64,000 nt of DNA, taken from Lachnospiraceae bacterium. Lineage in GTDB: Bacteria > Bacillota > Clostridia > Lachnospirales > Lachnospiraceae. A program made the translations under genes and the position numbers. The first letter of the stretch is position 1. Every line of letters starts with the position of its first letter. The DNA lies in contig JAETNQ010000003.1 of NCBI GenBank assembly GCA_021772075.1, positions 1 to 64,000 of the forward strand. The letters are read 5' to 3'. Of the stretch, positions 4,343 to 27,798 are shown in pieces. The notes beneath the pieces were generated by a model that saw only the letters and a list, made by a program, of their open reading frames with translations, searched no databases and was not told the DNA's origin.

Positions 4343-4532
4343 TGCTCATTCTCCTTTCTTCGCACACTTTGCAATGACAATCTGTAGATGGCTTTCCTTT
4401 CTTATATAGGCCGCAGAAAGCACACTCTTCTGGATTGGTAATTGTTATATTTCTTATTTTGCATTTGTAGTCGCCCCAAGAAGGACAAAATATAGCCTCC
4501 TCACAGGTTGTATGCTCTTTTACATTGCTCAT
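4335..4532 (-). CDS. small Cys-rich protein
   Basis: Multiple Cys pairs; 65 aa. Confidence 0.55.
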   Translation of the reverse strand: MSNVKEHTTCEEAIFCPSWGDYKCKIRNITITNPEECAFCGLYKKGKPSTDCHCKVCEERRMSND

Positions 4533-5231: not shown

Positions 5232-5253
5232 CTCTTTTCTCCAATCTCAAAAA

Positions 5254-5553: not shown

Positions 5554-5581
5554 AAATACTTTCCTCCTTTTAGAAACCCGA

Positions 5582-5869
5582 TTAGTAATTACGCCGTTGA
5601 TAGGGGAGATGCTTTTGAACCCTTCTTTCCACTCTATATCGTGGCGTGTAATTTTTTAGACACTGATTCTTTTTACAATGAGGCACAAACATCGCTTTTC
5701 CTTTGGCGCGTTTTTCTTTCTCATCATAAAGCTGCTCAAATATTTTTATAAGTGCGTCCGCAACCTGCCTAACAGTAACAGTAAATTGTTCCCATGCTTC
5801 TGTGAACTTATTAAGTAACGTATTCCATTCATCCGTAGTCATCAAATCATCCTCCATATCGTAGTCCAA
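5582..5869 (-). CDS. hypothetical phage protein
   Basis: ORF 95 aa. Confidence 0.55.
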   Translation of the reverse strand: MDYDMEDDLMTTDEWNTLLNKFTEAWEQFTVTVRQVADALIKIFEQLYDEKEKRAKGKAMFVPHCKKNQCLKNYTPRYRVERRVQKHLPYQRRNY

Positions 5870-6119
5870 GATGAGAATATAAACGGTCGTACAGTTGCTT
5901 TTCTATCTCATCCTTATAGACCACCACCGGTTTTCCTGCTATATGAATTGTCATGGTTTCACGGAGCAGAGGTTGTGCCGCATTTATACTCACAGATTGA
6001 GCAGCGTTCATTGCTATTTGCGGTTCGGGTAAATATGCCAGAGCTTCCATTCGTTTATGATCGCATTTATCAACAAAAGGACACTTCCGACATCTTTCTG
6101 ATAACTGCGATAGTCCCAT
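5847..6119 (-). CDS. small Cys-rich hypothetical protein
   Basis: CRKCPFVDKCDH. Confidence 0.6.
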   Translation of the reverse strand: MGLSQLSERCRKCPFVDKCDHKRMEALAYLPEPQIAMNAAQSVSINAAQPLLRETMTIHIAGKPVVVYKDEIEKQLYDRLYSHLGLRYGG

Positions 6120-6306
6120 TCACACTTCTCCTTTCTTCATTGTAAGTTTCTGATATAACTCTGTTGCCTCATTGCCCTTAAAAGCGTTGATAATATCAAT
6201 CTCGCCTTTATCTTTTCTGCCAACAATTAGCACCGGAATATTTCCATGGGTATGGTCAAAACTTACAAGAATAGTATCAGCTTTTCCTTTCATCAAATTC
6301 TCCTTT

Positions 6307-7563: not shown

Positions 7564-7566
7564 TTT

Positions 7567-8160
7567 CTATTCCGCCTTTTCTTCCCGAATCAGTTTTGCT
7601 TTAAGATTCCTGAGTTTTGCAACACTTCCGATTCCAAGCGCATCAGAAATCTCTTTTTCTGATTTTCCCTGATCGTGCAACTTGCGGATATCGCTTAAAA
7701 GCTGCTTATGATACGGTTGTATATGCTTTTTGAACTGGTTATAATAACTCCCCGTATTTCCATAGACTTTTTTTGCGATTGCCATCGCCAGTCCCTTTTC
7801 AGGATCGAAGTCCTCGTTTTCTGCCTTTACAACGGTCTTGGTACCATCCATCCAGAAGACAACAGTTGCGGGATTGTTAAAAATAACCTGCTTGATTTCC
7901 AGCGCCATTTTTCTGTGCAATTCTGCTACCCCGAACACATCATTGACTGCATACTTAATGGCATCCAGTTGGTTCTGTGCCTCCGCCGCCTTTCTATTGG
8001 CTTTGCTGATCTCTGTGGCCGCATACATCAGTTCGGGTTTATACCCGTCCTCATCAACGGCGTAAACGTAACCGCCGGTTAAGTTTCCGATCAGTCTTTG
8101 ATTAGGAGAATTGATCAGATTCTCCATGGTATCCATAAATTCTCTTGCTGTCATACTCAT
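7567..8160 (-). CDS. phage protein with VIFN-PAT-DG-KT-VK domain and C-terminal HTH-like region
   Basis: VIFNNPATVVFWMDGTKTVVK...DPEKGLAMAIAKK; shares this domain with 9089-9511. Confidence 0.65.
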   Translation of the reverse strand: MSMTAREFMDTMENLINSPNQRLIGNLTGGYVYAVDEDGYKPELMYAATEISKANRKAAEAQNQLDAIKYAVNDVFGVAELHRKMALEIKQVIFNNPATVVFWMDGTKTVVKAENEDFDPEKGLAMAIAKKVYGNTGSYYNQFKKHIQPYHKQLLSDIRKLHDQGKSEKEISDALGIGSVAKLRNLKAKLIREEKAE

Positions 8161-8162
8161 AG

Positions 8163-9089
8163 TTATTTTTCTCCTTTCAATAAGTCATCCATTTTATGAA
8201 CCAGTCTTCGTGTAACCCAAACATCAGAGAAATATATCGGCATAAACCAATAATTCTCAGTTGTATCATTTGGGTCTATCGGATCTGTAAAAGTGTTACC
8301 GATCTTGATATAGGCCGCCACTCCCAAAAGAGAAAGCTGAATATAACACATCAGAGCTACTATTTCATCAATGTCCTGCCCTACGACAAGAACATGGTTC
8401 TGATAATTCAGATTTTCCTTCTCCAACTGCCTCCTCGCTTCATGAATTCCGGCAATAAGTGTAGCGCCAGCACCGCAACATGAGTCACAGATAGTAATAT
8501 AGCCCTTTTCGTTTATTTCTTGAACCACGCTTTCAGTCATTGCCATCTTCGCCATAAGATCACAGACATGATATGGCGTAAAGAACTGCCCGTTTGAGCC
8601 ATTACCAAGATTTAATTCCATGAAAATACCGCCCAGAAAGTCCTGCTCCGGATTTTCTTCCAAAGCCATAACTGTATGAGCGGTAAGTTCGGGAAACAGG
8701 TTTTGCTCCTGCTTATTGTATTTCTTAATAATTCTCAGATACCGTTTCTCGCGTTCGTCATAGTGACTTTTATCCAACGAATTTGAGATTGCACAGGCAA
8801 ACATAATAATGAAATCTCTCCAAATATCCCATGCTCTATGGCAGGAAGTAAGCTGCTTGAACACTCTGAGAAATTCCTTTCTCGCATCCTGCCGCTTGAA
8901 TTCTTTTTGGGTTGTGGTAGATTTCTTTGACATATCCGGCTTTGGTTTAGGCAGCGGAGTGGATCTTGATTTTGGTTCCCATTTAGGAACTTGTTTCGGC
9001 GAAGCGGTATTTGTCTTTGATTTGGCTGTGGTCTGCCGCTTCGGTTTCTTTTTCCAAAACCTCATACATTCTCCTTTCAAACACGACAT
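8163..9089 (-). CDS. N6 adenine DNA methyltransferase-like protein (SAM motif, no NPPY visible)
   Basis: GQFFTPYHVCDLMAKM, ICDSCCGAGATLIAG, GQDIDEIVALMCYIQLSLLG, GNTFTDP. Confidence 0.75.
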   Translation of the reverse strand: MSCLKGECMRFWKKKPKRQTTAKSKTNTASPKQVPKWEPKSRSTPLPKPKPDMSKKSTTTQKEFKRQDARKEFLRVFKQLTSCHRAWDIWRDFIIMFACAISNSLDKSHYDEREKRYLRIIKKYNKQEQNLFPELTAHTVMALEENPEQDFLGGIFMELNLGNGSNGQFFTPYHVCDLMAKMAMTESVVQEINEKGYITICDSCCGAGATLIAGIHEARRQLEKENLNYQNHVLVVGQDIDEIVALMCYIQLSLLGVAAYIKIGNTFTDPIDPNDTTENYWFMPIYFSDVWVTRRLVHKMDDLLKGEK

Positions 9090-9511
9090 TAGTCACGCGG
9101 CAATTCAGTCTTCAGCACATTGTTGAAGTTCCCCTTATTACCGAGCGCTTTTTTCATGAAGCAAAGAGCTAATCCTTTTTCGGGATCATACACGTCACCT
9201 TTCTGACATTTTACAATCGTCTTGCTTCCGTCTTCCCAAATAACAATAGTGGCCGGATCATTAAATATAACTCTTTTGTATGTCATATCGGAAGGGATTT
9301 TCAGAACACCGATACGGCGAGGGTCTTTATAACCAACAGAACTACGTCCGTCAACTATTCCGTTCAGCTTTATTCTCATTATGGACTCATAAGAAAAACG
9401 TTCCGTTTCCATGTTCGTGATTGTAACGGGTATTTCTTTGCCATCCACAATTATGATTACTTCATGTCCTCTTGCTATTCCCGAATATAAAGAATTAAAT
9501 AATTCTCTCAT
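9089..9511 (-). CDS. phage protein with VIFN-PAT domain
   Basis: VIFNDPATIVIWEDGSKTIVK...DPEKGLALCFMKKALGNKGNF. Confidence 0.65.
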   Translation of the reverse strand: MRELFNSLYSGIARGHEVIIIVDGKEIPVTITNMETERFSYESIMRIKLNGIVDGRSSVGYKDPRRIGVLKIPSDMTYKRVIFNDPATIVIWEDGSKTIVKCQKGDVYDPEKGLALCFMKKALGNKGNFNNVLKTELPRD

Positions 9512-9536
9512 CTTTTTCTCCTTTCAAAAATATAAA

Positions 9537-9575
9537 GAAAGGGCTGTCACTTCATTAAAGTAACAACCCTCCCGG
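9537..9575 (-). terminator. intrinsic terminator
   Basis: minus strand GGGAGGGTTGTTAC...GTGACAGCCCTTTCTTTATATTTTT. Confidence 0.6.
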
Positions 9576-9578
9576 CGA

Positions 9579-10082
9579 TCAGTTGAACGGAATCTCGTCC
9601 GGACCCTCCATCTCGGCATATTTATCGGCAAACTCGTCTTCCTCAATGGTGACATACATGGTCTTTAAATATGCCTTGACACCATTCTTCTCGTTCTTCG
9701 TCCCTTCCTGAATAACCCAGTTGTAAGGGCGGATGGTCAGATCCACATTCCGAATTTCCGCATAATCCAAAGTATCGATAGACTCCTCGTCCAACTGCGT
9801 TTTTGCTCTCCGAGTAATCATAAAAACTTTGGGCGGAATATTCTCAAAGCTGACAGCCACCTGAAGATAATGTTTCGGATCATCATCCTCATCACGAGGG
9901 GGAAGAATCCGAATATTCCATCCCTCATCTGCCAATCTCTGAGCCAATTCGGGATCATCAATGATTACGCAAAAGTTACGGGCACCGGCTCTGTTGTACT
10001 TACCCTCTTTTCCGGCAAAATTCCGAAAGATAACCCGGGCATTCTCCATGATAATGTTGTCGTTTACTCTTTTTCGTGACAT
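9579..10082 (-). CDS. phage single-stranded DNA-binding-like protein
   Basis: N-terminal [30 protein letters not shown] and acidic C-terminus, adjacent to polymerase. Confidence 0.55.
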
Positions 10083-10102
10083 AATAATTCTCCTTTACTT
10101 TT

Positions 10103-13100
10103 TTAGTTGTCTTCGGGTTGATTCATGGCGTGTTTCATAATCACGTCCGAAATATCGTATCCAAGACCACAATCCATATGGAAAGTGTCTTCATTAAAAT
10201 GTGGGCAGTCAAAGCAGGTACTGAACTTCGCATCTCCGCAAGGCATTAACCACGGCGGTGTATCCTCACAGTCAATATCAGAATCATTTGCTCCAAGCGG
10301 ACCAATATAAGGGTCGTCCGAAACAAACCACTCGAAATCTCCATACTCTGAGATTGTCTTAACCGCTTCATCAATCAGCTTGTCATAGTATCCACGGTCA
10401 ATGTCGCCCTCTTTCTCCAGTTCCCGAACCATCTCCGATTCAAGCCATCGATACCCTTTCGAGCCGGTAGCAGCGTAATACTTACCATCTTTCTCACGCA
10501 TAAGCAGACCGCCGCCACAACCATCTTTAATCGGGCAGAATTGACCGACTTTTCCGATGAAACGATAATTGTGTCCCTCGTCAATAAGCGGTCTTAACTC
10601 TGCACAGGTCGCTTCAAATGTTATATCTGAAAGCAGTCCCTTTTTGTAGTCACTTTCTGCCTTGGCAAACTCTTTCTCGTGAGCGGTAACGTCAGGCATT
10701 CCCTCATTCATATCCAAATATAAAGAGCTGCTCACGGATTTGGTTTCGCACATATCTTCAAACGCAATCTCTTCTCCACTGAACAGTTTCTTAAATACAT
10801 ATGGAATCTGAAACTGGGTTCCTGTCGCCGTCCATTCGCCCGCGTGCTTTCCGTCCTTATACTTAGCGATATAAACCGCATCGTTGACGAGACACATCCT
10901 GTCGTATGTAGCCTCATGCTCAAATGTGTATCCATACTGTTTGCCATAATCCATTACAAACTGAATAATCTCAGGTGTTGCATCCGGAATTTTAATGGAG
11001 TCCGTCTTTATGTGTGCAACAGTAAAGCCCCGTTCCTGTACCTCATGCTTAAGGTTAATCATGAACAGAGCTCCTCGTTTCGCCACAATATTGTCTTTAT
11101 TTCTCGGATCACGGAATGCGTTATCGAACGACGCAGAAGTGAGACCATATACAGAATTGATTGCTGTCTTCAATGCATCAGCAAGCTGCTTGGATGTCAT
11201 TTCGCCGTCAATTACCTTCTGGATATAAGGTGTGAGTTTGCCATCCAGCATCGTGTTGACGATATCCCATGCCTCATGCTTGATACTCACACGTCCCTCA
11301 ACAATATCCCGGAATGCTCTGGTGAATTTTACTCCGAATAGAACTTCTGCAATGGCGCTGTGGGGATGCATGGAAGAAATATCCAACAATGCAACATTTC
11401 CGTACATACCCGGCTCAGCATAGACATAGCCACCTTCCCCAACTTCCTCACCGCGGTAAGTTGACTTTCCGTTCTCAAATTTGTATCCCGGAAAATATGG
11501 AAGAAAACTTCCGGCTTCACCATGCGTATGATTCATCATTTCTGGACACGCTTCTGCCAAGAACTGATAGGTCTCCTCATCCAGATCATGTACCGGCTCA
11601 GCCAAATCTCGATAATTGAACTGATCTTGCGGCTTCCGGTTATTGCCAAATATAATCTTTTGAGTAAGGCTGTTTGTCGTATCGTTTACAGTCATGTCCG
11701 CCAAGTCAGCCAGAATCTCCCGGGCTGTCCAATCAGCTTTCAGATAAACAAAAGCCGCTTCGGTCGCAATCACATCGTTATCACAATACTCGGCAACTTT
11801 TGTCCAGAGTTCCTCCGGTACAGGCTGATCCCACGGAAGTCCGAGCTCCTGATGATGGGTTCCAGCTTTGATGATCCGAATCTCTGCCTCTGAGAATCCT
11901 CTTTTTTTCAGTTCCTTTTCGGAAACATTTCCCATCTCAATTTCCAACTTCTTGAGACTCTTCTTATTTCCAGCAGAAGCAAAGTCGTAGACATCTGTGT
12001 AACTGACATTATAAGCTTCTCCAAAGAAACAATTAGCGCTTCCGTTAATAATCTTCTGCGAGAGGTTGTAAAGTTGTTCGTTAGAATAACCCATAAGTCT
12101 CGCATACAGAATATGATTGTCATACCGGCGACAATTGAAGCCAACCAATCGGAAGCGCATCAAACTCTCAATTTCGGTCGGCGTGGGATTGATCATTCTG
12201 ACAACCGGTTTTCCCTCACCCTCAATTTTCCAGTTCACAAGAAACAGGTTGGGAAATACTTCAACGTCATAAAATATCAGCTTTGCATCCTCATTCTTTA
12301 CGGCTGTGGACGTATCAGCAGATTTGAACTGCATCTTGTTTACTAACTTGATACAGTAATCGGCCTGATGAGTGCTGCTTGCTGCAAAAGCTAATACCGC
12401 ATTCCGCATATCTGTCACATCATATTTCAGTTCGCTCGAATATGCGTCCTCCAGTATTTTATAAATAAAGTCGATACTGGGCTTAGTACCGGGATGAATC
12501 TCCTTGTTGAGATTTCGCTTTATCAGTGTTCTAAGCCCTTTCTCGCTTTGAATCGCATCAAAATTTACCATTTTGTTTTCTCCTTTCAGCGGTAAACCAG
12601 AGCTAATTGTTGCGATGGGCAGATTGTTACACTTTGATAACTTACGTCTTAATGAACTATTGCCCGTGAACACCTTAACTTCTATGTGGTCGTCATAAAC
12701 GCGACTCAGCTTGGTGGGATCACCCGTATAAATATAATGCAGATGTACTCCACATCCGCTTTTACTGAGTTCCGCATAGGTAGGCGGCCATTTGCTTGCT
12801 TCTGTGACATTCCTTTCAAAAGACTTATTACCGTCCTTATCGGGAATATCAAAATCAATTACAATGTGATTTTCCGGAATCTTGACATAATGAAGTTGCG
12901 AAGAATCTAAAGCTGCTAGGGTTGTCTTGACATTTAACCATTTTTTGCTTGGTGTTCCTGCCTCTGTGCCATATTGAGCTGGACAGTCAGAGCATTCTTT
13001 GTCAAATATCGATTCCTGCTCTTTGAACTCAATCAATCTTGGCTTTGTTTCCGCAATTTCACCCTCCGAATTTTTTTCAGTTTCAAATTTCTCAGTCCGA

Positions 13101-14380
13101 AATCCAGAGTAATAGCTCCTAACCCGTGAGCCATCATCAAGATTGAAGCGCTCTTTGTAATCTCTGAAATAGTTTCTAAGTTCCTCCTTAAAGATTCTCT
13201 GAGAGAACGGAAACGACACCTTTGCTTCGTCACAATAGGTCTTATACATCTCCCAGGCAGCTTTTAAAGTTGTTCCGTCCTCTTTTTTAAACACATGGTA
13301 CGAATCAACAATGAAGTTGTAAAAATCATTGGATGCCCCCAGCATAGCAATGGGAATATAGTCGTCATACATACCGGGGTTTTTCAAATATACTTCCTGA
13401 CAGTAAGATGCAATAGCTCCAAGTTCAAAACCAACCTGCTTCACAATTGCTTTATAATCTTTCGGACTCAACTTGTCCCCGGTCGGAGATACATCAATCA
13501 ATCTTCGGATAAGACCGGATTTAGCATCTGTTATCTTTACCGGTTTGTTGGTTCCCATAAAAAGAAAACACTTGAATCGGTTAGCATAAGTAGATTTAAA
13601 CTTTTCGTTTACCGTCATCAATTCGTGAGACACCAAACTGTTAAGACGGGTATTATCTTCGATTCTTGACAAATCACCATCATGTTGGATTGCTACGAGA
13701 GGGTTACTCTTAAAAGCTTCCAATGCAAAGGAATTACTGGAAGATCCAAGTGCTTTTGCGTCAAACACCGAATAGTACCCGTCGAAGAGTTGCTGAATAA
13801 TGTTAAGCACCGTAGATTTACCCGTTCCGGCAGCACCATATAAAACCATGAACTTTTGCAGTCTTTTAGACTCTCCTGAAACGATCGAGCCGATTGCCCA
13901 TTCAATCTTGTGTCTTTCCTCCTCAGAATATAAAACAGACATCAGCTTGTCGTAAGCAGACAAATCGCCAGCTTCAAGCGGATAGTTCAGCTTTTTACTG
14001 GCGTAATCTTTTTTGTTCGTTTCTGTATTTGAAAATATAAGTTTTTCATCCAGCATATGAAAGGAATCTCTCATCTGCTTTTGACAATACTTATGCCAAG
14101 AATCAATCATTCCGGACTCAGCATCCCACATATGCAGGACTTTAATATCGGAGTCAAAGCGCCGGCGGTTTTCTTCTGCGTATCTATCCAGTTCGCGGTC
14201 TATGAGCTGCAAGGCATCCTGCTCATCTGTAGACCATAAACCACGTTCCTCAATCCAGATAGCGTAAAAGTCACCACCTCGAATCATCAGATCGGAGCTT
14301 TTTTTAATAATGAACTTCGGATAGATTTCTATTACACCACGCTTTGTACTACGTGTTGAAATCATCAAAAAGTCGATCAT
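10103..14380 (-). CDS. SF3 helicase / AEP-like primase / family-B DNA polymerase fusion (1425 aa)
   Basis: Walker A GAAGTGKST; DFDIPD + SGCGVHLHYIY + IEVKVFTG; exo motifs FYDVEVF, FNCRRYD, YCDND; pol motifs DISSMHPHSAI, KTAINSVYG, KTDS. Confidence 0.85.
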   Translation of the reverse strand: MIDFLMISTRSTKRGVIEIYPKFIIKKSSDLMIRGGDFYAIWIEERGLWSTDEQDALQLIDRELDRYAEENRRRFDSDIKVLHMWDAESGMIDSWHKYCQKQMRDSFHMLDEKLIFSNTETNKKDYASKKLNYPLEAGDLSAYDKLMSVLYSEEERHKIEWAIGSIVSGESKRLQKFMVLYGAAGTGKSTVLNIIQQLFDGYYSVFDAKALGSSSNSFALEAFKSNPLVAIQHDGDLSRIEDNTRLNSLVSHELMTVNEKFKSTYANRFKCFLFMGTNKPVKITDAKSGLIRRLIDVSPTGDKLSPKDYKAIVKQVGFELGAIASYCQEVYLKNPGMYDDYIPIAMLGASNDFYNFIVDSYHVFKKEDGTTLKAAWEMYKTYCDEAKVSFPFSQRIFKEELRNYFRDYKERFNLDDGSRVRSYYSGFRTEKFETEKNSEGEIAETKPRLIEFKEQESIFDKECSDCPAQYGTEAGTPSKKWLNVKTTLAALDSSQLHYVKIPENHIVIDFDIPDKDGNKSFERNVTEASKWPPTYAELSKSGCGVHLHYIYTGDPTKLSRVYDDHIEVKVFTGNSSLRRKLSKCNNLPIATISSGLPLKGENKMVNFDAIQSEKGLRTLIKRNLNKEIHPGTKPSIDFIYKILEDAYSSELKYDVTDMRNAVLAFAASSTHQADYCIKLVNKMQFKSADTSTAVKNEDAKLIFYDVEVFPNLFLVNWKIEGEGKPVVRMINPTPTEIESLMRFRLVGFNCRRYDNHILYARLMGYSNEQLYNLSQKIINGSANCFFGEAYNVSYTDVYDFASAGNKKSLKKLEIEMGNVSEKELKKRGFSEAEIRIIKAGTHHQELGLPWDQPVPEELWTKVAEYCDNDVIATEAAFVYLKADWTAREILADLADMTVNDTTNSLTQKIIFGNNRKPQDQFNYRDLAEPVHDLDEETYQFLAEACPEMMNHTHGEAGSFLPYFPGYKFENGKSTYRGEEVGEGGYVYAEPGMYGNVALLDISSMHPHSAIAEVLFGVKFTRAFRDIVEGRVSIKHEAWDIVNTMLDGKLTPYIQKVIDGEMTSKQLADALKTAINSVYGLTSASFDNAFRDPRNKDNIVAKRGALFMINLKHEVQERGFTVAHIKTDSIKIPDATPEIIQFVMDYGKQYGYTFEHEATYDRMCLVNDAVYIAKYKDGKHAGEWTATGTQFQIPYVFKKLFSGEEIAFEDMCETKSVSSSLYLDMNEGMPDVTAHEKEFAKAESDYKKGLLSDITFEATCAELRPLIDEGHNYRFIGKVGQFCPIKDGCGGGLLMREKDGKYYAATGSKGYRWLESEMVRELEKEGDIDRGYYDKLIDEAVKTISEYGDFEWFVSDDPYIGPLGANDSDIDCEDTPPWLMPCGDAKFSTCFDCPHFNEDTFHMDCGLGYDISDVIMKHAMNQPEDN

Positions 14381-14388
14381 TGCATTTT

Positions 14389-14685
14389 TTACTCTCCTTC
14401 CAGGCGCCTTAATTCCTTAATCTCATTGCTGAGCTCCTCGATTTTCTTGTTCTGCTTTTTGCGGTCGATTTCATTTGTAACCATATAAGCCGTCATAGCA
14501 ATAGCTAAAACGGCCACATTACGGTTAAAACTTCTCTGATGTTTTAAGGTTCGCTGAATGCTCTGAACAGCTTTTTCAGAAGACCGTAAACTGCCAAAAA
14601 TATAACCAAACACTTCACACATATGAATCTTGCCTCCTTTCCTTTGAACCTTAAAATTTATACGATTTCGTCTAAGTACCAGCAC
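14389..14685 (-). CDS. small hypothetical protein with TM and coiled coil
   Basis: MCEVFGYIFGSLRSSEK... internal start likely. Confidence 0.5.
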   Translation of the reverse strand: MLVLRRNRINFKVQRKGGKIHMCEVFGYIFGSLRSSEKAVQSIQRTLKHQRSFNRNVAVLAIAMTAYMVTNEIDRKKQNKKIEELSNEIKELRRLEGE

Positions 14686-15209
14686 ATTTGATACCAGATT
14701 TCAACAGTCCGCAAATCTCTGCGACTGTGTTTTACCGTAAACAAACCACCCTCGCCATTTCGTTCGTACTCTCGATTTAGAAATCGTTCGATGACTTTGT
14801 TAGCATAATCTTCATCAAATTTTGCATCTGTCATTGAACCTAATCCGAGATTCACTACCATGTTCCAGAACCATTGACCTGTACGATCTCCGATATCGGG
14901 ATCATCCATAATATGTTCTTCACAGCGAATAGCGAGGGCAATCATCATCTCCAAAACACTGCAGGGGTAATTGTCCAAATAAGTTGAAATCATGGATTGT
15001 TTGTACGAATTGTCGTAACCGAACCGATATCTAAGATCTATCCCATCCTCTTCTCTGTTTTCGTCCATAGCGATAGTATAGTTAAAATCTACGCTGTGAA
15101 GAAATGATAAAAGCTTCCGATAAGATAAACTCTTAGAATATCGGCGGTCTAATACGAGCTGGCACATCCAGTCAAAATATTTGCTATTCAGCTCGTTCTT
15201 TGTCATCAT
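14658..15209 (-). CDS. hypothetical phage protein
   Basis: ORF 183 aa. Confidence 0.65.
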   Translation of the reverse strand: MMTKNELNSKYFDWMCQLVLDRRYSKSLSYRKLLSFLHSVDFNYTIAMDENREEDGIDLRYRFGYDNSYKQSMISTYLDNYPCSVLEMMIALAIRCEEHIMDDPDIGDRTGQWFWNMVVNLGLGSMTDAKFDEDYANKVIERFLNREYERNGEGGLFTVKHSRRDLRTVEIWYQMCWYLDEIV

Positions 15210-15805
15210 ACCTCCATCTGATGTGGCCTTGTTTTAACAACGTCCGAATAAGTTCTCTGATCCAGAAGAATTTCATAGTCACATTTCAGCCGGTCATTTC
15301 TGACAAAGACCGAATCATCCTCGTACTCTCCAAAATGAGTCAGAGACTCAAACCCAACGGCGCCCTCCACATCTTCTACCAGTTCGTCATTCTCATCCGC
15401 AAGAACCTGATCTCCATAATAGGTGAGACTTATTTTCTCATACTCCTCATACTCACCAAATTCTTCCGGGGAAATAACATAGGGTTTATCGTTCATAGAT
15501 GTCTGCTCCTCTTTTCCCGTCCCCGAATAATTCGTGTAGCCTTCATTTTTCAGCAACGCAGCATATTCAGAAATGCTGGGCTTTTCTTCTACTTTCCGCG
15601 GCTCTGCCTGATGCGGTGTTTCCGAAACAGTTACTTCCATGTCGGGATCTTTTTTCATGAAGACAGCCTTTACGGAATCAATCTCTTCCTGAGCAATCTG
15701 CTCATATTTTTTCTTAACATACTGCCATGTAACGACCGACCCGACTGCAGCCCCCATAGCAAACATTACAAAATTGGTTACTTTACTCATCATCGGTCTC
15801 CTCAT
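15206..15805 (-). CDS. hypothetical membrane-anchored phage protein
   Basis: N-terminal TM VTNFVMFAMGAAVGSVVTWQYVKKKY. Confidence 0.65.
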   Translation of the reverse strand: MRRPMMSKVTNFVMFAMGAAVGSVVTWQYVKKKYEQIAQEEIDSVKAVFMKKDPDMEVTVSETPHQAEPRKVEEKPSISEYAALLKNEGYTNYSGTGKEEQTSMNDKPYVISPEEFGEYEEYEKISLTYYGDQVLADENDELVEDVEGAVGFESLTHFGEYEDDSVFVRNDRLKCDYEILLDQRTYSDVVKTRPHQMEV

Positions 15806-15944
15806 TTTTTATAGTCATCACCGTTAATGCCAAGCCGCCAAACAGCATGGACATGCTGATCAAAATTCCTCCAGTGATATGTCTTTTCCTCTTGGTATCC
15901 AATATGTAATCTAACATGGATATCAAACTCTCAAATCCTTCCAT
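15783..15944 (-). CDS. small membrane protein (MEGFESLISMLDYILDTKRKRHITGGILISMSMLFGGLALTVMTIKNEETDDE)
   Basis: AAAGGAG SD before internal ATG at 15944. Confidence 0.55.
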   Translation of the reverse strand: MEGFESLISMLDYILDTKRKRHITGGILISMSMLFGGLALTVMTIKNEETDDE

Positions 15945-15948
15945 GTCT

Positions 15949-16050
15949 TTACATCTCCTTTCCGCCGGACAAAACAGCGATTCCGCCGACAAAACAGATA
16001 CCAGCCATAGCCGCTAACGCATAGGAAACAAATGTTAAAACATTACTCAT
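15949..16050 (-). CDS. 33-aa predicted membrane microprotein (MSNVLTFVSYALAAMAGICFVGGIAVLSGGKEM)
   Basis: Hand translation, GAAAGGAG SD upstream; its end overlaps the SD of the next gene. Confidence 0.5.
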   Translation of the reverse strand: MSNVLTFVSYALAAMAGICFVGGIAVLSGGKEM

Positions 16051-16065
16051 AAGTCAATTCTCCTT

Positions 16066-16611
16066 TCATTCATACCTTGAAAAATAGTGGTTTTCTACCT
16101 GAAACATAGGAACGCCATAATTGCTGTAACATCCAGCCGTAAAGAATACAACATCATAGTTTGTTCGACATTCCAGTTCTTCTCTGACAAGCTGACAAAT
16201 ATCTTCTCGCACTTCACAGCAATCCACCCTGCCGTTCCACATCGATGAAAATTGATACGGCTGATAAATCACATCGTAAGCTGTATCGGGAAAATGTTCG
16301 GAGTCCATACGGTTAAGAATCGTGTCGATCACCAGCCGTTTACCCTCTTCGCATTCTCCTTCAGCCTCGGCCATAGTGACCAATGCAATCAGCGCAATAT
16401 CTTCATCTGGAAGTAATTCTTCTTTCTTTTCAGTATCCTTCATGTTCATTACAGAAATATCTTCTGTCGGTTCATAATTGACAGAGGCTATGTGCAGCGG
16501 AATAACTTTCGTTTCTAAAACCGGTTCTTCTGCTGTTGAAATGGTGGTAACTGAAAATATAAAAACCGCACACAGAGAAAGAAACGCGGTTATTGCAGTT
16601 ATCTTACGCAT
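16066..16611 (-). CDS. SleB-type cell wall hydrolase with signal peptide
   Basis: MAEAEGECEEGKRLVIDTILNR...YQPYQFSSMWNGR; N-terminal hydrophobic leader. Confidence 0.8.
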   Translation of the reverse strand: MRKITAITAFLSLCAVFIFSVTTISTAEEPVLETKVIPLHIASVNYEPTEDISVMNMKDTEKKEELLPDEDIALIALVTMAEAEGECEEGKRLVIDTILNRMDSEHFPDTAYDVIYQPYQFSSMWNGRVDCCEVREDICQLVREELECRTNYDVVFFTAGCYSNYGVPMFQVENHYFSRYE

Positions 16612-16635
16612 ATAAGTTCTCCTTAAAAATATTTA

Positions 16636-16676
16636 GACTATCCTCAGTTCTCTGGGTCCGAGCCAAGGATAGTCTA
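16636..16676 (-). terminator. hairpin terminator upstream of SleB-like gene
   Basis: AGACTATCC...GGATAGTCT followed by TAAATATTTTT on minus strand. Confidence 0.5.
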
Positions 16677-16725
16677 TTGCATCCTGATATGGATTTCCGG
16701 AACCGATCCCATCGATTCCGTCCCT

Positions 16726-17691
16726 TCACATAAGCTCCCAGATATTTCCATCCACATTGAAGTCCAACAAGATTGCAGTATCAAACCCGTTTGCAAAATC
16801 GGAATAGCTCAGATTGTCGGCATAAAGTCCGAAATCCACATAGTTGTCACCAACGGGATGCTCCGGATCATAAACCCAACCAACTACCTGACCAGCTTTG
16901 GTGCGGGGCATTCCCAACATTTCATATACATCATTCAGGAAAAGACGCTTCTTTGCCCGCAGAAGATCATTGGCATAGCTTTCCTGCGCCTTGAGAAACA
17001 TAAGGTTGTATTCGTTGTTGGTTTCCCAATGGGGATTTAAAACACTGTTTCCCTCTTCATCCTTTGTGTATTTCTCAAAAAACCGAGCGTAACCGCTGAT
17101 ATCAGACGGGTTTACAACGAAAGCCGTTTTCTTTACTTTCTTTTCTTTGCCGGTCTCTTCGTCCATAACCGTTTCGCTTACCTTTTCCGCTTTGATATTA
17201 TACCTGAGTTCTCGATCAATCTCTTTGCCGAACCGCTCAACAACGCGATTTCTGTAATCCTTGAAACTCTTATCAATCGTAGCATAAGCCGCTGCCAAAG
17301 CCACATTCCTCTTCCGAAGAATATTATTGGACGCCAGAATGCTGGTGATGGATAATGTACCAACTGCCACGGCGGGTGCGTACAGCTTTGCCAGCTTCAG
17401 CGCTGTCTGGGTATAGACAATGACCGTGTCTTTCTTGGCGTCTTCCGGGGAATAGTCCCCCCCCATCGCAGTGCATCCTTTTTCGGCAGACTCATGGACC
17501 TTATCCATTTTTTCTTTGGTTTCGCCCAAAACTTTATCCACCTTCAACGTAGCTTTACAAGCCAGAACGGCACTCGCCACGGTGCCAACAACGCCAGCCA
17601 CGACAAGAATTTCCGGGCTGTGTTTTTTCAACTGGAAACCGACCTTATTAAAGGTTCCGCTTACTTTTGTCATGATTTCTGCTTTTTTCAT
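16726..17691 (-). CDS. DUF6353-like membrane protein
   Basis: KKHSPEILVVAGVVGTVASAVLACKAT...NEYNLMFLKAQESYANDLL. Confidence 0.75.
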   Translation of the reverse strand: MKKAEIMTKVSGTFNKVGFQLKKHSPEILVVAGVVGTVASAVLACKATLKVDKVLGETKEKMDKVHESAEKGCTAMGGDYSPEDAKKDTVIVYTQTALKLAKLYAPAVAVGTLSITSILASNNILRKRNVALAAAYATIDKSFKDYRNRVVERFGKEIDRELRYNIKAEKVSETVMDEETGKEKKVKKTAFVVNPSDISGYARFFEKYTKDEEGNSVLNPHWETNNEYNLMFLKAQESYANDLLRAKKRLFLNDVYEMLGMPRTKAGQVVGWVYDPEHPVGDNYVDFGLYADNLSYSDFANGFDTAILLDFNVDGNIWELM

Positions 17692-17711
17692 AGCTAAATA
17701 GTCTCCTTTTT

Positions 17712-17960
17712 TTAATCTTCTAATTTTTTCAAATGGTCAATAAGATGCTGCGTATACCAAAGGATTTTTTCCAAATCCTGAATACCGTTTTTTTTCTTCC
17801 ACCGGCAGGCATACTTGAGAATATTTCCTGTATCTGTAGCCTCAATTCCTTTGAGATCAAAAGTAAAGGCTTCGATTACATCGATAACTTCCAATCCCGT
17901 TTCGGATTGATAATGGTCCGGATGGGATACCATCTTGTCTTTCGATTCGTACATGGACAC
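17712..17960 (-). CDS. DUF3310-like protein
   Basis: HPDHYQSETGLEVIDVIEAF...YACRWKKKNGIQDLEKILWY. Confidence 0.85.
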   Translation of the reverse strand: MSMYESKDKMVSHPDHYQSETGLEVIDVIEAFTFDLKGIEATDTGNILKYACRWKKKNGIQDLEKILWYTQHLIDHLKKLED

Positions 17961-17965
17961 CTCCT

Positions 17966-18583
17966 TTAGTTAATCGGCAGCGCTTTGGGTAATTTGAGAA
18001 TATAGCCATCTCTTACCCGAACCGGCTTACATCCGCTGATATCAGTCCAGCCATATTTATTCACGGCATAATTATCTGTGGATACATCGGCGAGATCGTA
18101 CAGATCTCCGACACTCACAACCCCATACTGACTGATGATATCATTCATCGCATCAAGAACCGACTCTGCATCTCCGCGAGTTTCAAAGACAATATCGTCA
18201 TAATCATATCCACCGCGGGACGAAGCCAAGCGCTCACGTCTTCGATCCGGCTCACGGTCATAGAACTTTCCGTATGACACCTTAGTTCCAGATGAAGCCT
18301 TTCTTGTCCGCCCGGTTTCCCCATACAGAATCATATCGATACCGTTCGTAACGATGTCTGATATTGCCTTTTTAATTGCCGGAACGAGAACGTCCATCAA
18401 AATATAAGATTTTACATTTCCAACGTCTTCCGAAATAAAAACATCGGCGAACTTCTGCATCTCACCCTTTTTCTTAGGCTTAGCCGATCCGCTGATAACT
18501 TTTTCCACTTTTTTATCTGGTGGAGCTGCTCCCTCCTTTTGAGTTTCTTTAGATTTATGGGAATTAGGTCTGTATTCCTCCAT
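17966..18583 (-). CDS. conserved phage hypothetical protein
   Basis: ORF 205 aa, conserved-looking GETGRTRKASSGTKVSYGKFYD. Confidence 0.65.
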   Translation of the reverse strand: MEEYRPNSHKSKETQKEGAAPPDKKVEKVISGSAKPKKKGEMQKFADVFISEDVGNVKSYILMDVLVPAIKKAISDIVTNGIDMILYGETGRTRKASSGTKVSYGKFYDREPDRRRERLASSRGGYDYDDIVFETRGDAESVLDAMNDIISQYGVVSVGDLYDLADVSTDNYAVNKYGWTDISGCKPVRVRDGYILKLPKALPIN

Positions 18584-18599
18584 TTTCTTCTCCTTTCAC

Positions 18600-18797
18600 T
18601 TAAACAGTAACCAACTTTCCCGGCAACGTAATTTTTGTATTAGGAAGCTTGTTGTTCTGCTTTTTAAACTGATATGAGAGATTACTTCTCGCTTTTCTCT
18701 CGGACGTTGCGTATGTAGAGCCTTTCCAGTTATGCGCAACGCAAATTTCAAATTCCATAACAGGTCCGCTGTACTTATACTGGTTCATAAGCCACCT
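18600..18797 (-). CDS. small hypothetical protein
   Basis: MNQYKYSGPVMEFEICVAHNWKGSTYATSERKARSNLSYQFK; upstream ORF extension crosses terminator. Confidence 0.55.
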   Translation of the reverse strand, partial: RWLMNQYKYSGPVMEFEICVAHNWKGSTYATSERKARSNLSYQFKKQNNKLPNTKITLPGKLVTV

Positions 18798-18805
18798 CCT
18801 CAAAG

Positions 18806-18848
18806 CAAAAAGAAAAAGGGAAAGCACCTTGTTACAGGTACCTTCCCG
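18806..18848 (-). terminator. intrinsic terminator
   Basis: minus strand GGGAAGGTACCTGTAACAAGGTGCTTTCCCTTTTTCTTTTT. Confidence 0.7.
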
Positions 18849-18872
18849 TCCGAACACTGTTTTTTCTTACAT

Positions 18873-19163
18873 TTACGCCGGATCTTTATCAACGGTCTCT
18901 CCGCTCACGATTTCTGCCTCCTCGAAGTCATTGAAATCCCCCTGCTCGACCATCTGTTTATTCCGCTTCCGAGCTTTGATATGTGCTATCGCCGGATCGA
19001 TGATGTATTTACCTGCTACATAGCCGGCAATAAACACCAATCCAAAGGCAGCCGCTTTCTTAAATCCGTTAGCCGAACTTACTTTCACGATCTCCTCAGT
19101 AGTTTCCATAACCTCTTCGTTTGTCATAATTTCGTTGTTTTCCATTGTGTTTTCTCCTTTCAA
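18873..19163 (-). CDS. small membrane protein
   Basis: FKKAAAFGLVFIAGYVAGKYIIDP. Confidence 0.6.
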   Translation of the reverse strand: MKGENTMENNEIMTNEEVMETTEEIVKVSSANGFKKAAAFGLVFIAGYVAGKYIIDPAIAHIKARKRNKQMVEQGDFNDFEEAEIVSGETVDKDPA

Positions 19164-19218
19164 TAATCAGAAAATATGTGGGTTCTCCATTAAAGACATT
19201 GTTTTTTTCGCGTACTTA

Positions 19219-19989
19219 TCAGGCAGTGCGGAAGTCATACCGGGGCGCAATGTGATACTCAATTACAAGGCAAGGTGTTCCGTCATCTGCTAACTGAGAA
19301 CTGAATGACAAATCGATATACCCCTGGTCGATATTCCAGCCGAGTTCGTCACCGATGCTGACCGGATTTAAGCCGATTTCATAGTAGAAATCGTTCAGAG
19401 AAATATACATCTCATCCCGCATCTGCCGATTCAACTCATTTGCTGCCTTTTTCAGTTTATCTATATCGGATTTGAAATATCTTCCCGATACGGCATCATA
19501 ACAGAGAGTATTGCCTCTTTCGGTGATGATCACTTCTCTGTTAGTTACAGGGTTCTTTTCAATCTTATCTTTAGCTACAGCATCCCGAATAGATTGCTCT
19601 TTTTTCTCTCCGATTGTTTCTACTACTTTTTCCTGATATTCCTTCAGAGCAGACTCGGAGAGAGCATATGCTGTAGCCAAGGCTGCCCGCCGTCTCATAT
19701 TTACCGAACTGGCTCCAATTAAGCAAGCTATTGAAACTGTTCCAATGGCAGCCGTCGGAATATAACAAGTCCACGCCGCCTGGATTGTTTCTTTCGGTGT
19801 AAGCTCATTTACCTCCAGTTCATCCTTCTTTTCCTCAATGAGAATTAGAGCTTTAGGCGTTGCCCGGACAGCCATTACAGTTGTCGTAATCATTCCGGCG
19901 ATTCCGATCCCGGTTAAAATTTCCGGACTGTGTTTTTTTACAGCGGTTCGCATATTCCGCATTGCCGCCGTTATGGTGTTTTTGTTCAT
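19219..19989 (-). CDS. DUF6353-like membrane protein
   Basis: AVKKHSPEILTGIGIAGMITTTVMAVRATPKALILIEEKKDEL. Confidence 0.75.
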   Translation of the reverse strand: MNKNTITAAMRNMRTAVKKHSPEILTGIGIAGMITTTVMAVRATPKALILIEEKKDELEVNELTPKETIQAAWTCYIPTAAIGTVSIACLIGASSVNMRRRAALATAYALSESALKEYQEKVVETIGEKKEQSIRDAVAKDKIEKNPVTNREVIITERGNTLCYDAVSGRYFKSDIDKLKKAANELNRQMRDEMYISLNDFYYEIGLNPVSIGDELGWNIDQGYIDLSFSSQLADDGTPCLVIEYHIAPRYDFRTA

Positions 19990-20044
19990 CAATATACTCC
20001 TTTCGGTTTTTGCTGCACATAAGCGCATCTCCTTTCAAAAAATA

Positions 20045-20068
20045 TAAAACCGCCCACAAGGGGCGGCG
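20045..20068 (-). terminator. hairpin immediately downstream of candidate variable region
   Basis: minus strand CCGCCC-CTTGT-GGGCGG-TTTTATATTTTTT. Confidence 0.65.
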
Positions 20069-20069
20069 A

Positions 20070-20618
20070 TTAACCTAACCGGAAGACCGGACGAACCCCA
20101 TTAGAGGCCGAAGCGTCGGTGTAGTCCGCATAGCCATCGTCGTTCACAGAAGCGAAAAGAGCCGAAGAAGACTTTACTTTATTCTGCAACCAGCCCCACT
20201 CGTAAGCTTCTCCTTCACGAATCGCGATACGGTTCTTACGGTCTTTCATAAGAAGCCACTGTTTCTTACCGCTGGGTTCATAATTATCGACATCGCCGAA
20301 GAATTCCTCTGCATACGGGATACGAAGCAAATCACCATTCTTAAAAGGAACCATGATACTCTGAATAGAGCTGAAGATATTCAGAACTTCTTCTTTCTGG
20401 AGTTCTTTGCGTAAATCACTTGCCTCATAGCCGCCTGCGTTCGTATACTCACGGTTCATCTGATATGCTGTATCCAAATACTGATCCAAAAGAAAGAGTG
20501 CTCCCTTTCTGGTAATCTTCTGACAGGTCGCCGTATACTTTCCAACCTCGATCTGATCGCCAACCTTAAACTCATTTGCTGCCTGAATTGTTACTTCCTG
20601 TTTTCTTAATGCCTTCAT
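20070..20618 (-). CDS. DUF6273-like protein, candidate DGR target
   Basis: C-terminus ALFASVNDDGYADYTDASASNGVRPVFRLG; GAAAGGAG SD; paralog of 22017-22580. Confidence 0.7.
   Translation of the reverse strand: MKALRKQEVTIQAANEFKVGDQIEVGKYTATCQKITRKGALFLLDQYLDTAYQMNREYTNAGGYEASDLRKELQKEEVLNIFSSIQSIMVPFKNGDLLRIPYAEEFFGDVDNYEPSGKKQWLLMKDRKNRIAIREGEAYEWGWLQNKVKSSSALFASVNDDGYADYTDASASNGVRPVFRLG
20088..20168 (-). other. candidate DGR variable region (VR1)
   Basis: 81-nt 3' segment matching VR2 except at 15 positions that are all compatible with template adenines. Confidence 0.65.
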
Positions 20619-20646
20619 TTCTTTTTCTCCTTTCATTTTTAACTCA

Positions 20647-20961
20647 TTATTCCAAACATCTTGTAATTTCTAAGATGTCCGTTGCCATTTCATAGGCGAC
20701 ACTAAATATCTGCCTATCCTCTTTATCCCCATAATCTTTTGCGGAAAACTTGCCTGTCTTTACCGCAAAGTCTGATATAATATCAATGGGATCTTGTGTT
20801 GGGTTTCTGCGAACACGATCTAAAAGTTCACGACCAGCCCATCTTTGATAACTAACTTCCTTAAACCAGTGCTTATCCCAACTTCGCTGTGGTTCTGTGA
20901 TATCGAAAATATAATCCTCGATAATCAAGATAACTTGTTCATGCTTAGACATCCTAGACAT
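20647..20961 (-). CDS. hypothetical protein
   Basis: ORF 104 aa. Confidence 0.6.
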   Translation of the reverse strand: MSRMSKHEQVILIIEDYIFDITEPQRSWDKHWFKEVSYQRWAGRELLDRVRRNPTQDPIDIISDFAVKTGKFSAKDYGDKEDRQIFSVAYEMATDILEITRCLE

Positions 20962-20996
20962 CGTTCTCTCCTTAGAACAGAAAAGAAGAGCCCTTG

Positions 20997-21167
20997 TTAG
21001 GACTCCTCATTTTCGTCATCTTTTTTGGCAAGTGCTTCGTTTACCTTTTCTTCGATTTTTTCATCCATTTTCTGTTCATTGACCCAATCGGTTACAAGCG
21101 TTGCCGCCACTCCGATCACGGTCGCTGCCAGACCAAGAACTTTAATCAATTTACTTTTAGTAGTCAT
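20997..21167 (-). CDS. small membrane protein (56 aa)
   Basis: Hand translation MTTKSKLIKVLGLAATVIGVAATLVTDWVNEQKMDEKIEEKVNEALAKKDDENEES*; AAAAGGAGG SD. Confidence 0.6.
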   Translation of the reverse strand: MTTKSKLIKVLGLAATVIGVAATLVTDWVNEQKMDEKIEEKVNEALAKKDDENEES

Positions 21168-21184
21168 AAAGCGATTACCTCCTT

Positions 21185-21211
21185 TTCATAATAGAACTTG
21201 CAATTTCTGCG
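21185..21211 (-). promoter_or_regulatory. copy b of conserved 25-bp intergenic element
   Basis: CATAATAGAACTTGCAATTTCTGCG on plus strand. Confidence 0.7.
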
Positions 21212-21213
21212 AA

Positions 21214-21978
21214 CTAATCAAATTTACAGAGTGCCATTGCGTCAATAGTAATGCATTCCAAGCCGTCTTCCAGAGTTGTTTTCTGATTATCAAAATCAAG
21301 CCAATAAGAATCCATCTCTTCGACCATATGGGTTATATCCCAACCCATTTCATCGCCTTTCTCTACTCCATCAACGCCAAGAAACGATAAATATTCATTT
21401 AAAGAACATTCACCTCTAAGCGCGATATTACGATTCGCATGATACTGAGCATTTAAAACAGCAGCCATTGTTGTAGTAAAGTATTTCTTCGATGTAAGGT
21501 CATAGAAAAGACACTCCTCACTTTCGGGGTCCATATCCATGTTATAAACTTGATAACCCCATGCAGAATCAGCAACCATTGCATCTTTAGCCATTTCAGC
21601 ATGGATTTTGTTATCAGCATCTTCGCCATAAACCTTTTTGGCTGCTTGTCGGTATTGCTTGTAGGATTCATTAAGCATGGCGTATGCGCTCGTCAAAGCC
21701 GCCTGATTACGTTTATCCATTACACCAATACCGATTATACAAGCAACAGTACCAACGCCTACCAAAACGGACGGAATATAACATTTCCAAGTTGTTTGCA
21801 CCAGTTCCACAGGCGTAAGTTTATCCGTTTCCAGTTCATCTTTCTTAGCTTTGATAAGCCTCATTGCCTTAGGTGTAGCCCGAACAGCCGTCACAGCCGT
21901 ACCAACAACACCGACGATTCCTAAGACAGTTAAAATTGTTGGGGATGATCGCCGTAATCCCGTTGAAAATTTGCTCAT
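21214..21978 (-). CDS. DUF6353-like membrane protein
   Basis: GLRRSSPTILTVLGIVGVVGTAVTAVRATPKAMRLIKAKKDEL. Confidence 0.75.
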   Translation of the reverse strand: MSKFSTGLRRSSPTILTVLGIVGVVGTAVTAVRATPKAMRLIKAKKDELETDKLTPVELVQTTWKCYIPSVLVGVGTVACIIGIGVMDKRNQAALTSAYAMLNESYKQYRQAAKKVYGEDADNKIHAEMAKDAMVADSAWGYQVYNMDMDPESEECLFYDLTSKKYFTTTMAAVLNAQYHANRNIALRGECSLNEYLSFLGVDGVEKGDEMGWDITHMVEEMDSYWLDFDNQKTTLEDGLECITIDAMALCKFD

Positions 21979-21993
21979 TTTCTTCTCCTCTCA

Positions 21994-22014
21994 AAAGGGG
22001 CACAAGGCCCCAAG
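21994..22014 (-). terminator. hairpin immediately downstream of second candidate DGR target
   Basis: minus strand GGGGC-CTTGT-GCCCC-TTTT, same loop as the 20045-20068 hairpin. Confidence 0.55.
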
Positions 22015-22016
22015 AT

Positions 22017-22580
22017 TTATCTAACCAACCAGAACTCCGGACGAACTCCATAAGAGTTCGAAGCGTTGGTGTAGTTCGCAGGGCCACTGCCGTTCACAAA
22101 AGCGAAATACGCCGAAGAAACACTCCTCTTTACCGCATTTCTGAGCCAACCCCATTCCCATTCATCATTGAGGTATGCTACACGATTCCTCCGCTCCTTC
22201 ATAAGCGGAAGCTGCTCGTCTTCATCCGGCTCAAAATGCTCATTATCCCATTCGTCATCGTGACCGAACAATTCGCCTACTGTCGGAATAGACAGACTGT
22301 CAATCCGGCTTTTAAGCTCCTCGGGAAATGCTGCCAAAAGAACCGTGTCGATCCACTTCTTCAAATCAGACTCCTCATAACCGCCCTCGTTGATTCTCTG
22401 GTTGTTCATCGGCCTGCTCGTAACGTACTCATCGAAAATAAACAAGACGCCCTTGTCCGTAATCTTGTGAGCCGTTGCAGTAAAGTCCCCGATCTCTGCC
22501 AAGGATATCAAAATCTGATCCCCAACCATAACCTCTCTTGTTTCCAGTTCCTGTCTCCGTAATACTTTGATGTTTTCCAT
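22017..22580 (-). CDS. DUF6273-like protein, candidate DGR target
   Basis: C-terminus AYFAFVNGSGPANYTNASNSYGVRPEFWLVR; true start at MENIKVLRRQEL after GAAAGGAG SD. Confidence 0.7.
   Translation of the reverse strand: MENIKVLRRQELETREVMVGDQILISLAEIGDFTATAHKITDKGVLFIFDEYVTSRPMNNQRINEGGYEESDLKKWIDTVLLAAFPEELKSRIDSLSIPTVGELFGHDDEWDNEHFEPDEDEQLPLMKERRNRVAYLNDEWEWGWLRNAVKRSVSSAYFAFVNGSGPANYTNASNSYGVRPEFWLVR
22038..22118 (-). other. candidate DGR variable region (VR2)
   Basis: See VR1; 66/81 identical, mismatches confined to A-compatible sites. Confidence 0.65.
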
Positions 22581-22648
22581 TTCTTTTTCTCCTTTCATTT
22601 TTTTTATGGAAAATAAAAGAGCCGTTATCGACTCAAAAAAAAAACAAG

Positions 22649-22718
22649 AGAAACAGATAGGACTCGAACCTATGACCTCCACTAGTGTGTGGCGCTCTAC
22701 CAACTGAGCTACTGTCTC
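22649..22718 (-). tRNA. tRNA-like gene with shortened anticodon arm, identity not assignable
   Basis: GAGACAG-TA-GCTC-AGTTGGTA-GAGC-G-CCAC-ACACTA-GTGG-AGGTC-ATAGG-TTCGAGT-CCTAT-CTGTTTC; anticodon arm 14 nt instead of 17; no encoded CCA. Confidence 0.6.
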
Positions 22719-26559: not shown

Positions 26560-27798
26560 ATGCTGATGCAATGTCCCGAATGTGCCTTGCAAGTAAGTGA
26601 TAAAGCAACTTACTGTCCGCATTGCGGATACCCAATGCAACCGGATATAAACCAACGAAAGCCTCGGAAATCAAACAAAAGAAGAAGACTTCCGAACGGA
26701 TTTGGACAGATAAGTGAAATCAAAGGAAGAAATCTTCGAAACCCATTTCGAGCTATGGTTACAGTTGGAAAAACTCCGACTGGACGGCCCATTTGTAAGC
26801 CGCTCAAACCGGAGTCGTACTTCCCAACATATAATGATGCCTATGCTGCTTTGGTGGAATATAACAAGAATCCGTATGATTTAGAACCAGCCATAACAGC
26901 AAAAGAGCTCTATGAAAAATGGACCGAAGAATATTTCAAGACACTGAAGAACAATGCAAGCGCAAGAGCTGTTACCTCTGCCTGGGCGTATTGTTCATCG
27001 GTTTATGATATGCGGGTAATGGATATCCGGGCACGCCATGTAAAAGGTTGCATGGAAGAAGGCGTAGCTGTAGTTAGAGGGAAAGAGCAGCGCCCCAGCG
27101 CATCCATGAAAAACAAAATCAAGTCGCTGTTTAACCTTATGTTGGATTATGCTTTGGAATATGAGATTGTGGATCGCAACTATTCCAGAAGTTTTAATCT
27201 GACGGAAGAGACCATCAAAGAAATTCAGACTGTTAAGAAAGAACATATCCCGTTTACAGATGAAGAAATTTCATTGCTTTGGGAGCATGTGGATGATAAA
27301 CGGTATGTTGACGCAATCCTGATTCAATGCTATTCTGGATGGAGACCGCAGGAACTTGGATTGATAAGGTTGGAAGATGTTGATTTAGAGAATTGGACTT
27401 TCAAAGGCGGTATGAAAACAGATGCCGGTACCGATAGAGTTGTTCCGATTCATTCAAAGATACAATCACTGGTGCTCAGAAAATATAAAGAGGCGGAATC
27501 CCTAGGAAGTGAATTCCTTTTCAATTGTACTGATCCGGACAGCAACCGGAAAAATATAAAGTTCACATACAACCGGTATCAGAAGGGATTCACAAGAATC
27601 CGCGATGAGCTGAAGTTGAATCCAGACCATAGACCACATGATGGACGAAAACATTTTGTGAGTATGGCAAAAAAATATGGCGTTGATGAATACGCTATTA
27701 AATACATGGTTGGACATAAAATTTCTGACATTACCGAAAAGGTATATACAGCAAGGGAGTTTGACTGGCTACGAGAGGAAATAGAAAAAATAAAATAG
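26560..27798 (+). CDS. tyrosine recombinase/integrase with N-terminal zinc ribbon
   Basis: CPECALQVSDKATYCPHCGYPM; catalytic GWRPQEL, HDGRKHF, GH, Y in EKVYTAREF. Confidence 0.9.
   Translation: MLMQCPECALQVSDKATYCPHCGYPMQPDINQRKPRKSNKRRRLPNGFGQISEIKGRNLRNPFRAMVTVGKTPTGRPICKPLKPESYFPTYNDAYAALVEYNKNPYDLEPAITAKELYEKWTEEYFKTLKNNASARAVTSAWAYCSSVYDMRVMDIRARHVKGCMEEGVAVVRGKEQRPSASMKNKIKSLFNLMLDYALEYEIVDRNYSRSFNLTEETIKEIQTVKKEHIPFTDEEISLLWEHVDDKRYVDAILIQCYSGWRPQELGLIRLEDVDLENWTFKGGMKTDAGTDRVVPIHSKIQSLVLRKYKEAESLGSEFLFNCTDPDSNRKNIKFTYNRYQKGFTRIRDELKLNPDHRPHDGRKHFVSMAKKYGVDEYAIKYMVGHKISDITEKVYTAREFDWLREEIEKIK

Follow-up and report, generated by a model that had tools for sequence, protein, structure and literature searches.

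A ~60-kb prophage of a Lachnospiraceae bacterium almost certainly carries one diversity-generating retroelement (DGR) with three target genes, two of which are encoded in the stretch of DNA analyzed here (positions 1 to 64,000 of contig JAETNQ010000003.1, here C28; hereafter, the window) and one of which is encoded, along with the reverse transcriptase (RT), on contig C41 of the same genome. All three variable regions (VRs) differ from their template at adenines and were shown to have been diversified recently.

Both target genes in the window are open reading frames on the minus strand that encode proteins of the DUF6273 family, and both end in a VR at the C-terminus, where the family has a conserved GVRP motif. 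Target gene 1 spans positions 20070-20636 (PF19789, E 6e-8; phrog_21980) and target gene 2 spans positions 22017-22580 (PF19789, E 9e-13; phrog_21980, E 1e-92). The first-pass annotation, made from the letters of the window, had placed the latter gene identically, whereas the start it gave for the former (20618) is the second in-frame ATG of the full frame. It had also aligned 20088-20168 with 22038-22118 without gaps at 66 of 81 identical positions, which was reproduced exactly, and had judged all 15 differences to be compatible with an adenine in a common template. Of these, 14 do fall at adenines of the true template on C41, while one (GCT/GCG) does not. Relative to that template, the 81-nt core of VR1 (20087-20171, minus strand) has 14 mismatches, every one at an adenine (hypergeometric p 2e-9), and the 81-nt core of VR2 (22037-22121, minus strand) has 12, of which 11 are at adenines (p 4e-6).

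No RT or template is present within the 64-kb window; both were found on C41. When the window's own assembly was searched with the 75-nt template that had been hypothesized in the first-pass annotation, the real one was matched at 72 of 75 positions (96%; C41:5904-5978). This template repeat (TR; C41:5895-5979) lies ~110 bp upstream of a DGR-type RT gene (C41:6089-7306; PF00078, E 2e-16; phrog_1423), and an Avd gene (C41:5395-5886; phrog_3206 'Avd protein of DGR', E 4e-15) separates it from a third VR, the cis VR (C41:4732-4816). The latter is part of a 323-aa tail-side gene that comes after tape-measure, Dit, and other tail or virion genes, and all eight of its core mismatches to the TR are at template adenines. 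The RT reads IGDQLSQ at the motif that in DGR RTs has the form xGxxxSQ. The elsewhere-in-genome searches for an RT, a template, and extra VRs that had been recommended were thereby all rewarded, and the system combines an RT near its template, near-identity of TR and VRs, adenine-restricted mismatches, Avd, a 3' hairpin, and active diversification.

Evidence for recent activity comes from a near-identical phage, IMG/VR contig 3300015207_000111 (L023), which was aligned without gaps to window positions 14646-22612. The two sequences differ at 36 of 7,967 bp (99.5% identical), and 33 of the 36 differences are inside VR1 and VR2, 31 of them at template adenines; the other 7,797 bases hold the remaining three. 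VR1 accounts for 17 differences (16 at template adenines) and VR2 for 16 (15 at template adenines), such that both the clustering of differences in the VRs (Fisher p 2e-53) and the enrichment at adenines within them (p 1e-18) are pronounced. VR1 and VR2 have therefore both been diversified recently. A comparison of the cis VR on C41 with a contig from the same sample as L023 yielded 19 differences, of which 18 are at template adenines, and between two further relatives all 13 differences in the VR1 homologue are at template adenines. The absence of any RT or TR and ordinary substitution across the 3' ends of orthologs had been named beforehand as refuting the DGR reading, which survives: the RT and TR exist, and the differences among near-identical relatives are almost exclusively at template adenines in the VRs.

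The window and C41 are joined by relatives and by an empty integration site rather than by a single contig of this genome, as the middle of this prophage copy (~24 kb) is absent from the assembly. Both parts recur at 99.4-100% identity on a 46-kb phage contig (3300015207_000451), with window positions 4774-14622 at one end and C41 positions 1-8074 at the other. In a congeneric genome with an empty site, 263 bp separate the host flank of C28 (window position 28180 onward) from that of C41 (8110 onward), and the sequence runs uninterrupted across the junction, which includes a short common core, TATTATA. This core came from the empty-site alignment; a shared-word search for att repeats between C28 and C41 gave nothing long. 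Because the host flanks adjoin at the empty site, the prophage ends are placed at approximately window position 27948 and C41 position 8060, with window positions 1-27948 forming one part and C41:1 to ~8060 the other end. The empty-site junction also places the integrase (26560-27798, plus strand; phrog_1, PF00589) and the distal VRs at one end and the RT, Avd, TR, and cis VR at the other. The distal target operon is read away from the integrase and ahead of the phage primase/DNA polymerase gene (10103-14380, minus strand; phrog_4210), which belongs to the same early operon, and a helicase gene. The same order is seen in a 61-kb relative (IMGVR_UViG_2802428826_000004), where the integrase is followed by a VR2-type gene at 6.4 kb, a VR1-type gene at 8.3 kb, the cis VR at 55.8 kb, and the TR at 57.0 kb, and the distance from distal VR to TR is 49-50 kb in the genomes of three relatives. 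Each of the eleven phage records that were fetched has kept the tail-side VR, and ten also have one or two distal VRs in the same protein family; the one that does not (G002) is a contig that ends before the distal genes. The named hosts of related RTs are mostly Lachnospiraceae.

Two other explanations for the VRs were weighed. According to one, the target genes are ordinary paralogues whose 3' ends are kept alike by purifying selection or gene conversion and whose adenine pattern is due to chance. Their membership in one family with a conserved C-terminal GVRP motif would fit this, but a real A-rich template is located beside a DGR RT and Avd, and near-identical phages differ in their VRs almost only at template adenines, an observation by which this explanation, now practically without probability, is already refuted. 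According to the other, VR1 and VR2 reside on a separate mobile element and are acted on in trans by the DGR of another prophage. The targets and the RT are indeed on different contigs, and the genome has two more DGRs, on C102 and C76; against this, a near-identical phage contig joins both parts, the host flanks of C28 and C41 are adjacent in the empty-site genome, complete relatives have the same gene order in one prophage, and VR1 and VR2 carry the marks of the C41 template, not those of the C102 template, at the positions that discriminate between the two. Action in trans is consequently very improbable. The first-pass annotation had placed the RT and TR of a DGR with at least two targets either to the left of position 1 or in trans; they were found, with Avd and a third VR, at the far end of the same prophage, and the part of that claim that does not hold is action from a different element.

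The two additional DGRs were considered as sources of VR1 and VR2 and rejected. The C102 DGR (G000 C102:107178-108422) belongs to a second prophage of the same group and has its own template and one target with one VR, but its template is not matched by VR1 and VR2. The C76 DGR (L004) in the same bacterial genome is unrelated to them, with 14 of its 15 mismatches at adenines. Among relatives, several odd copies were also encountered. In L060:8610, L062:7535, and L161:9803, a sequence at the template position, with a template-type flank and no hairpin, is nevertheless VR-like and diversified at adenines, which points to an overwritten template or to a chimeric assembly. In L065:18584-19115, the distal DUF6273 target is split into two open frames, and some copies of the distal target may be decaying or misassembled. 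Two IMG/VR records, G018 (96.9 kb) and G019 (81.5 kb), represent larger phages with an RT and with small DUF6273 genes that are ~56% identical.

Beyond the stop codon of each target gene lies a GC-rich hairpin whose loop is CTTGT, as had been noticed in the first reading of the window: CCGCCC-CTTGT-GGGCGG after VR1 (20050-20066, minus strand) and GGGGC-CTTGT-GCCCC after VR2 (21997-22011, minus strand). In related phages, the exact CTTGT-loop hairpin follows 66 of 93 VR-like sequences and none of 52 TR-like sequences. Most of the other VR-like sequences have a version of this hairpin in which one loop base differs (e.g., CTCGT or CCTGT), and the stems of the VR hairpins are of two sequences, GGGGC/GCCCC and CCGCCC/GGGCGG. 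In phage BPP-1, a hairpin at the same place is needed for efficient homing, and both the pairing of its stem and the sequence of its loop matter (PMC3240598). By analogy with the known mechanism of BPP-1, the RT would copy TR RNA with errors at adenines and the resulting cDNA would replace each VR, a step in which the CTTGT-loop hairpin, being found after VRs but after no TR, may help.

How the cDNA finds its site has been called incompletely understood (PMC12875486), and the sequences that flank the VRs and the TR offer a possible answer. The RNA directly 3' of the C41 template, ATTCTCTG CCTAACCAA CGGAGAA, can fold back as a hairpin, the loop and 3' arm of which complement the target sequence immediately downstream of the VR (TTC..GGTTGGTTAG). 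The IMH-like flank of VR2 (22021-22036, minus strand; sense AGTTCTGGTTGGTTAG) is partly complementary to this RNA, and that of VR1 (20070-20086, minus strand; sense TCTTCCGGTTAGGTTAA) shows weaker complementarity. Across eight diverged representatives, the mean score is 9.6 when spacers are paired with their own flanks and 7.4 when the pairs are swapped (permutation p 4.5e-4). Bases of spacer and flank are associated (19/2/2/7, Fisher p 5e-4, in counts that take related phages as separate), with coordinated changes such as GGTTAG/CTAACC to GGTTAA/TTAACC, and L159, L160, and L161 have other spacer/flank pairs again. The target motif TTGGTTA is kept in two frames: in most cases, tail-side targets read it as IG-stop or VG-stop and distal targets as WLV(R/K)-stop; therefore, selection acts here on nucleotides. 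In BPP-1, the spacer AGGTGGTCA and the VR flank TGACCACCT are exactly complementary, a perfect 9-nt match that by score alone is not significant (shuffle fraction 0.12) and is notable only through its position, since it ends at spacer adenine 56, which we take to be the adenine at which cDNA is primed in that phage; the spacer and cDNA would thus read as the VR antisense strand. Priming of cDNA at an internal spacer adenine has been described (PMC12875486). No clear signal of spacer-flank complementarity was detected in Shimadzu, Fontainebleau, Lelie, or C76. Collectively, these sequence comparisons are tentatively read as pointing to DGR homing that might be RNA-guided at the 3' boundary, with the spacer RNA after the template being antisense to the downstream flank of the target, although we consider this distinctly less probable than not. 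The spacer RNA 3' of the TR would prime synthesis and stay joined to the cDNA, the chimera forming one antisense strand across the VR edge; by an inference weaker than that of the BPP-1-like copying, this RNA may pair with the sense strand immediately downstream of the VR, which would help to choose the site.

Each target gene in the window is followed directly by a gene that encodes a DUF6353 protein, at 19219-19992 for target gene 1 (minus strand; PF19880, E 2e-90) and at 21214-21978 for target gene 2 (minus strand; PF19880, E 4e-65), the latter with hydrophobic segments recognized by eye. Both in the window and in most close relatives, such a gene begins no more than ~40 nt after each gene for a DUF6273 protein with a VR; the pairing is common but not universal, being missing in some relatives and absent in phage Fontainebleau. 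A third DUF6353 paralogue (16726-17691) is part of the same operon, alongside a cell wall hydrolase gene (16066-16611), and a phage tRNA gene lies just upstream of target gene 2 (22648-22718, minus strand), for which ARAGORN sees two anticodon bases only. DUF6273 has been modelled as a C-type-lectin-like domain (PMC10743442). A structure model of the target 1 protein has low confidence (pLDDT 69), and a PDB search with it returned no lectin match; the sole moderate PDB hit, an IgA peptidase chain (9qa6; probability 0.91, E 0.03), was set aside as the model is weak. With the same model (pLDDT 69), DUF6273 models were matched in a viral structure library.

What the distal proteins do is the least certain part of this work. 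It is proposed here that they could be intracellular, early, lectin-like binders with a randomized binding face, a suggestion to which we give somewhat less than even weight but which we place ahead of the alternatives. The face would be randomized to keep up with variable factors of the host or of rival phages (counter-defence or exclusion), and the third, cis target would retune host adsorption. A less probable reading is that the distal targets are late virion proteins, for example Hoc-like decoration proteins or secondary adhesins, and that the DGR only retunes binding at the particle surface. That target 2 weakly matches the profile of a Hoc-like head decoration family (E 0.0035) points in that direction, as does the view that other DUF6273 targets are structural (PMC10743442, PMC11792537), but the genes are in an early operon between integrase and primase/polymerase, not among head or tail genes, and the distal target of phage Fontainebleau sits between DNA polymerase and helicase. 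Slightly more doubtful still is the suggestion that the distal targets might work together with DUF6353 partners at the membrane of lysogens, either excluding superinfecting phages or modifying the host; the DUF6353 genes that closely follow the target genes at both loci and in most close relatives would be consistent with it, but the pairing is not universal and many phages have DUF6353 without such a VR gene.

Distal DGR targets are already known from gut prophages. In those whose second VR lies far from the RT (PMC12629997; Nature 2025), the DGR of a temperate gut phage likewise reaches a remote gene near early or counter-defence genes, but they were reported with one distal VR, whereas two are present here, each beside a DUF6353 gene. 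The DGR of BPP-1 (Mtd/Avd/bRT) has the same VR-Avd-TR-RT order, adenine-restricted mutation, and a hairpin just 3' of the VR whose loop sequence matters (PMC3240598); it differs in having one target and a GAAA loop, compared with three targets and a 5-nt CTTGT loop, and in that two targets of the present phage are ~50 kb from the template in relatives. The closest annotated phage that was found, Acutalibacter phage Fontainebleau (ON453893), encodes an RT 42% identical to that on C41 and a small DUF6273 target, 44% identical, in its replication region, with 15 of 15 mismatches at template adenines; unlike the present phage, it has one distal target with no DUF6353 neighbor, and its targets are labelled 'hypothetical protein' in the record. 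Roseburia phage Shimadzu and Faecalibacterium phages Lelie and CP11 (PMC11792537) also have a DGR with two VRs, the targets of Lelie and CP11 carry DUF6273, and the distal VR of Shimadzu is near methyltransferase and recombinase genes, as checked in its sequence; in contrast to the present phage, they have two targets, and the RTs of Shimadzu and Lelie are 31% and 27% identical, respectively, to the C41 RT. Remote variable proteins of cyanobacteria and Treponema (PMC7517822, PMC4891356) similarly represent several dispersed genes served by one DGR, but these are cellular chromosomal targets rather than phage early genes. Targets outside the tail genes, which the first-pass annotation had called unusual, are thus unusual but have precedents (PMC12629997, PMC11792537; Shimadzu). 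What is new is a DGR with three targets, two of which are early DUF6273 genes that are each paired with a DUF6353 gene. DGR surveys seek targets next to the RT, and the largest of them states that it would miss remote targets (PMC8144416).

From the near-identical phage pair, diversification at three sites can be measured cleanly as it occurred in nature, and the complementarity of the flanks provides a testable explanation of how the cDNA locates its target. In this prophage, a single mutation machine serves both a tail-side gene and two early genes that are not tail genes, and some factor within the infected cell may likewise vary quickly enough to call for a hypermutable binder.
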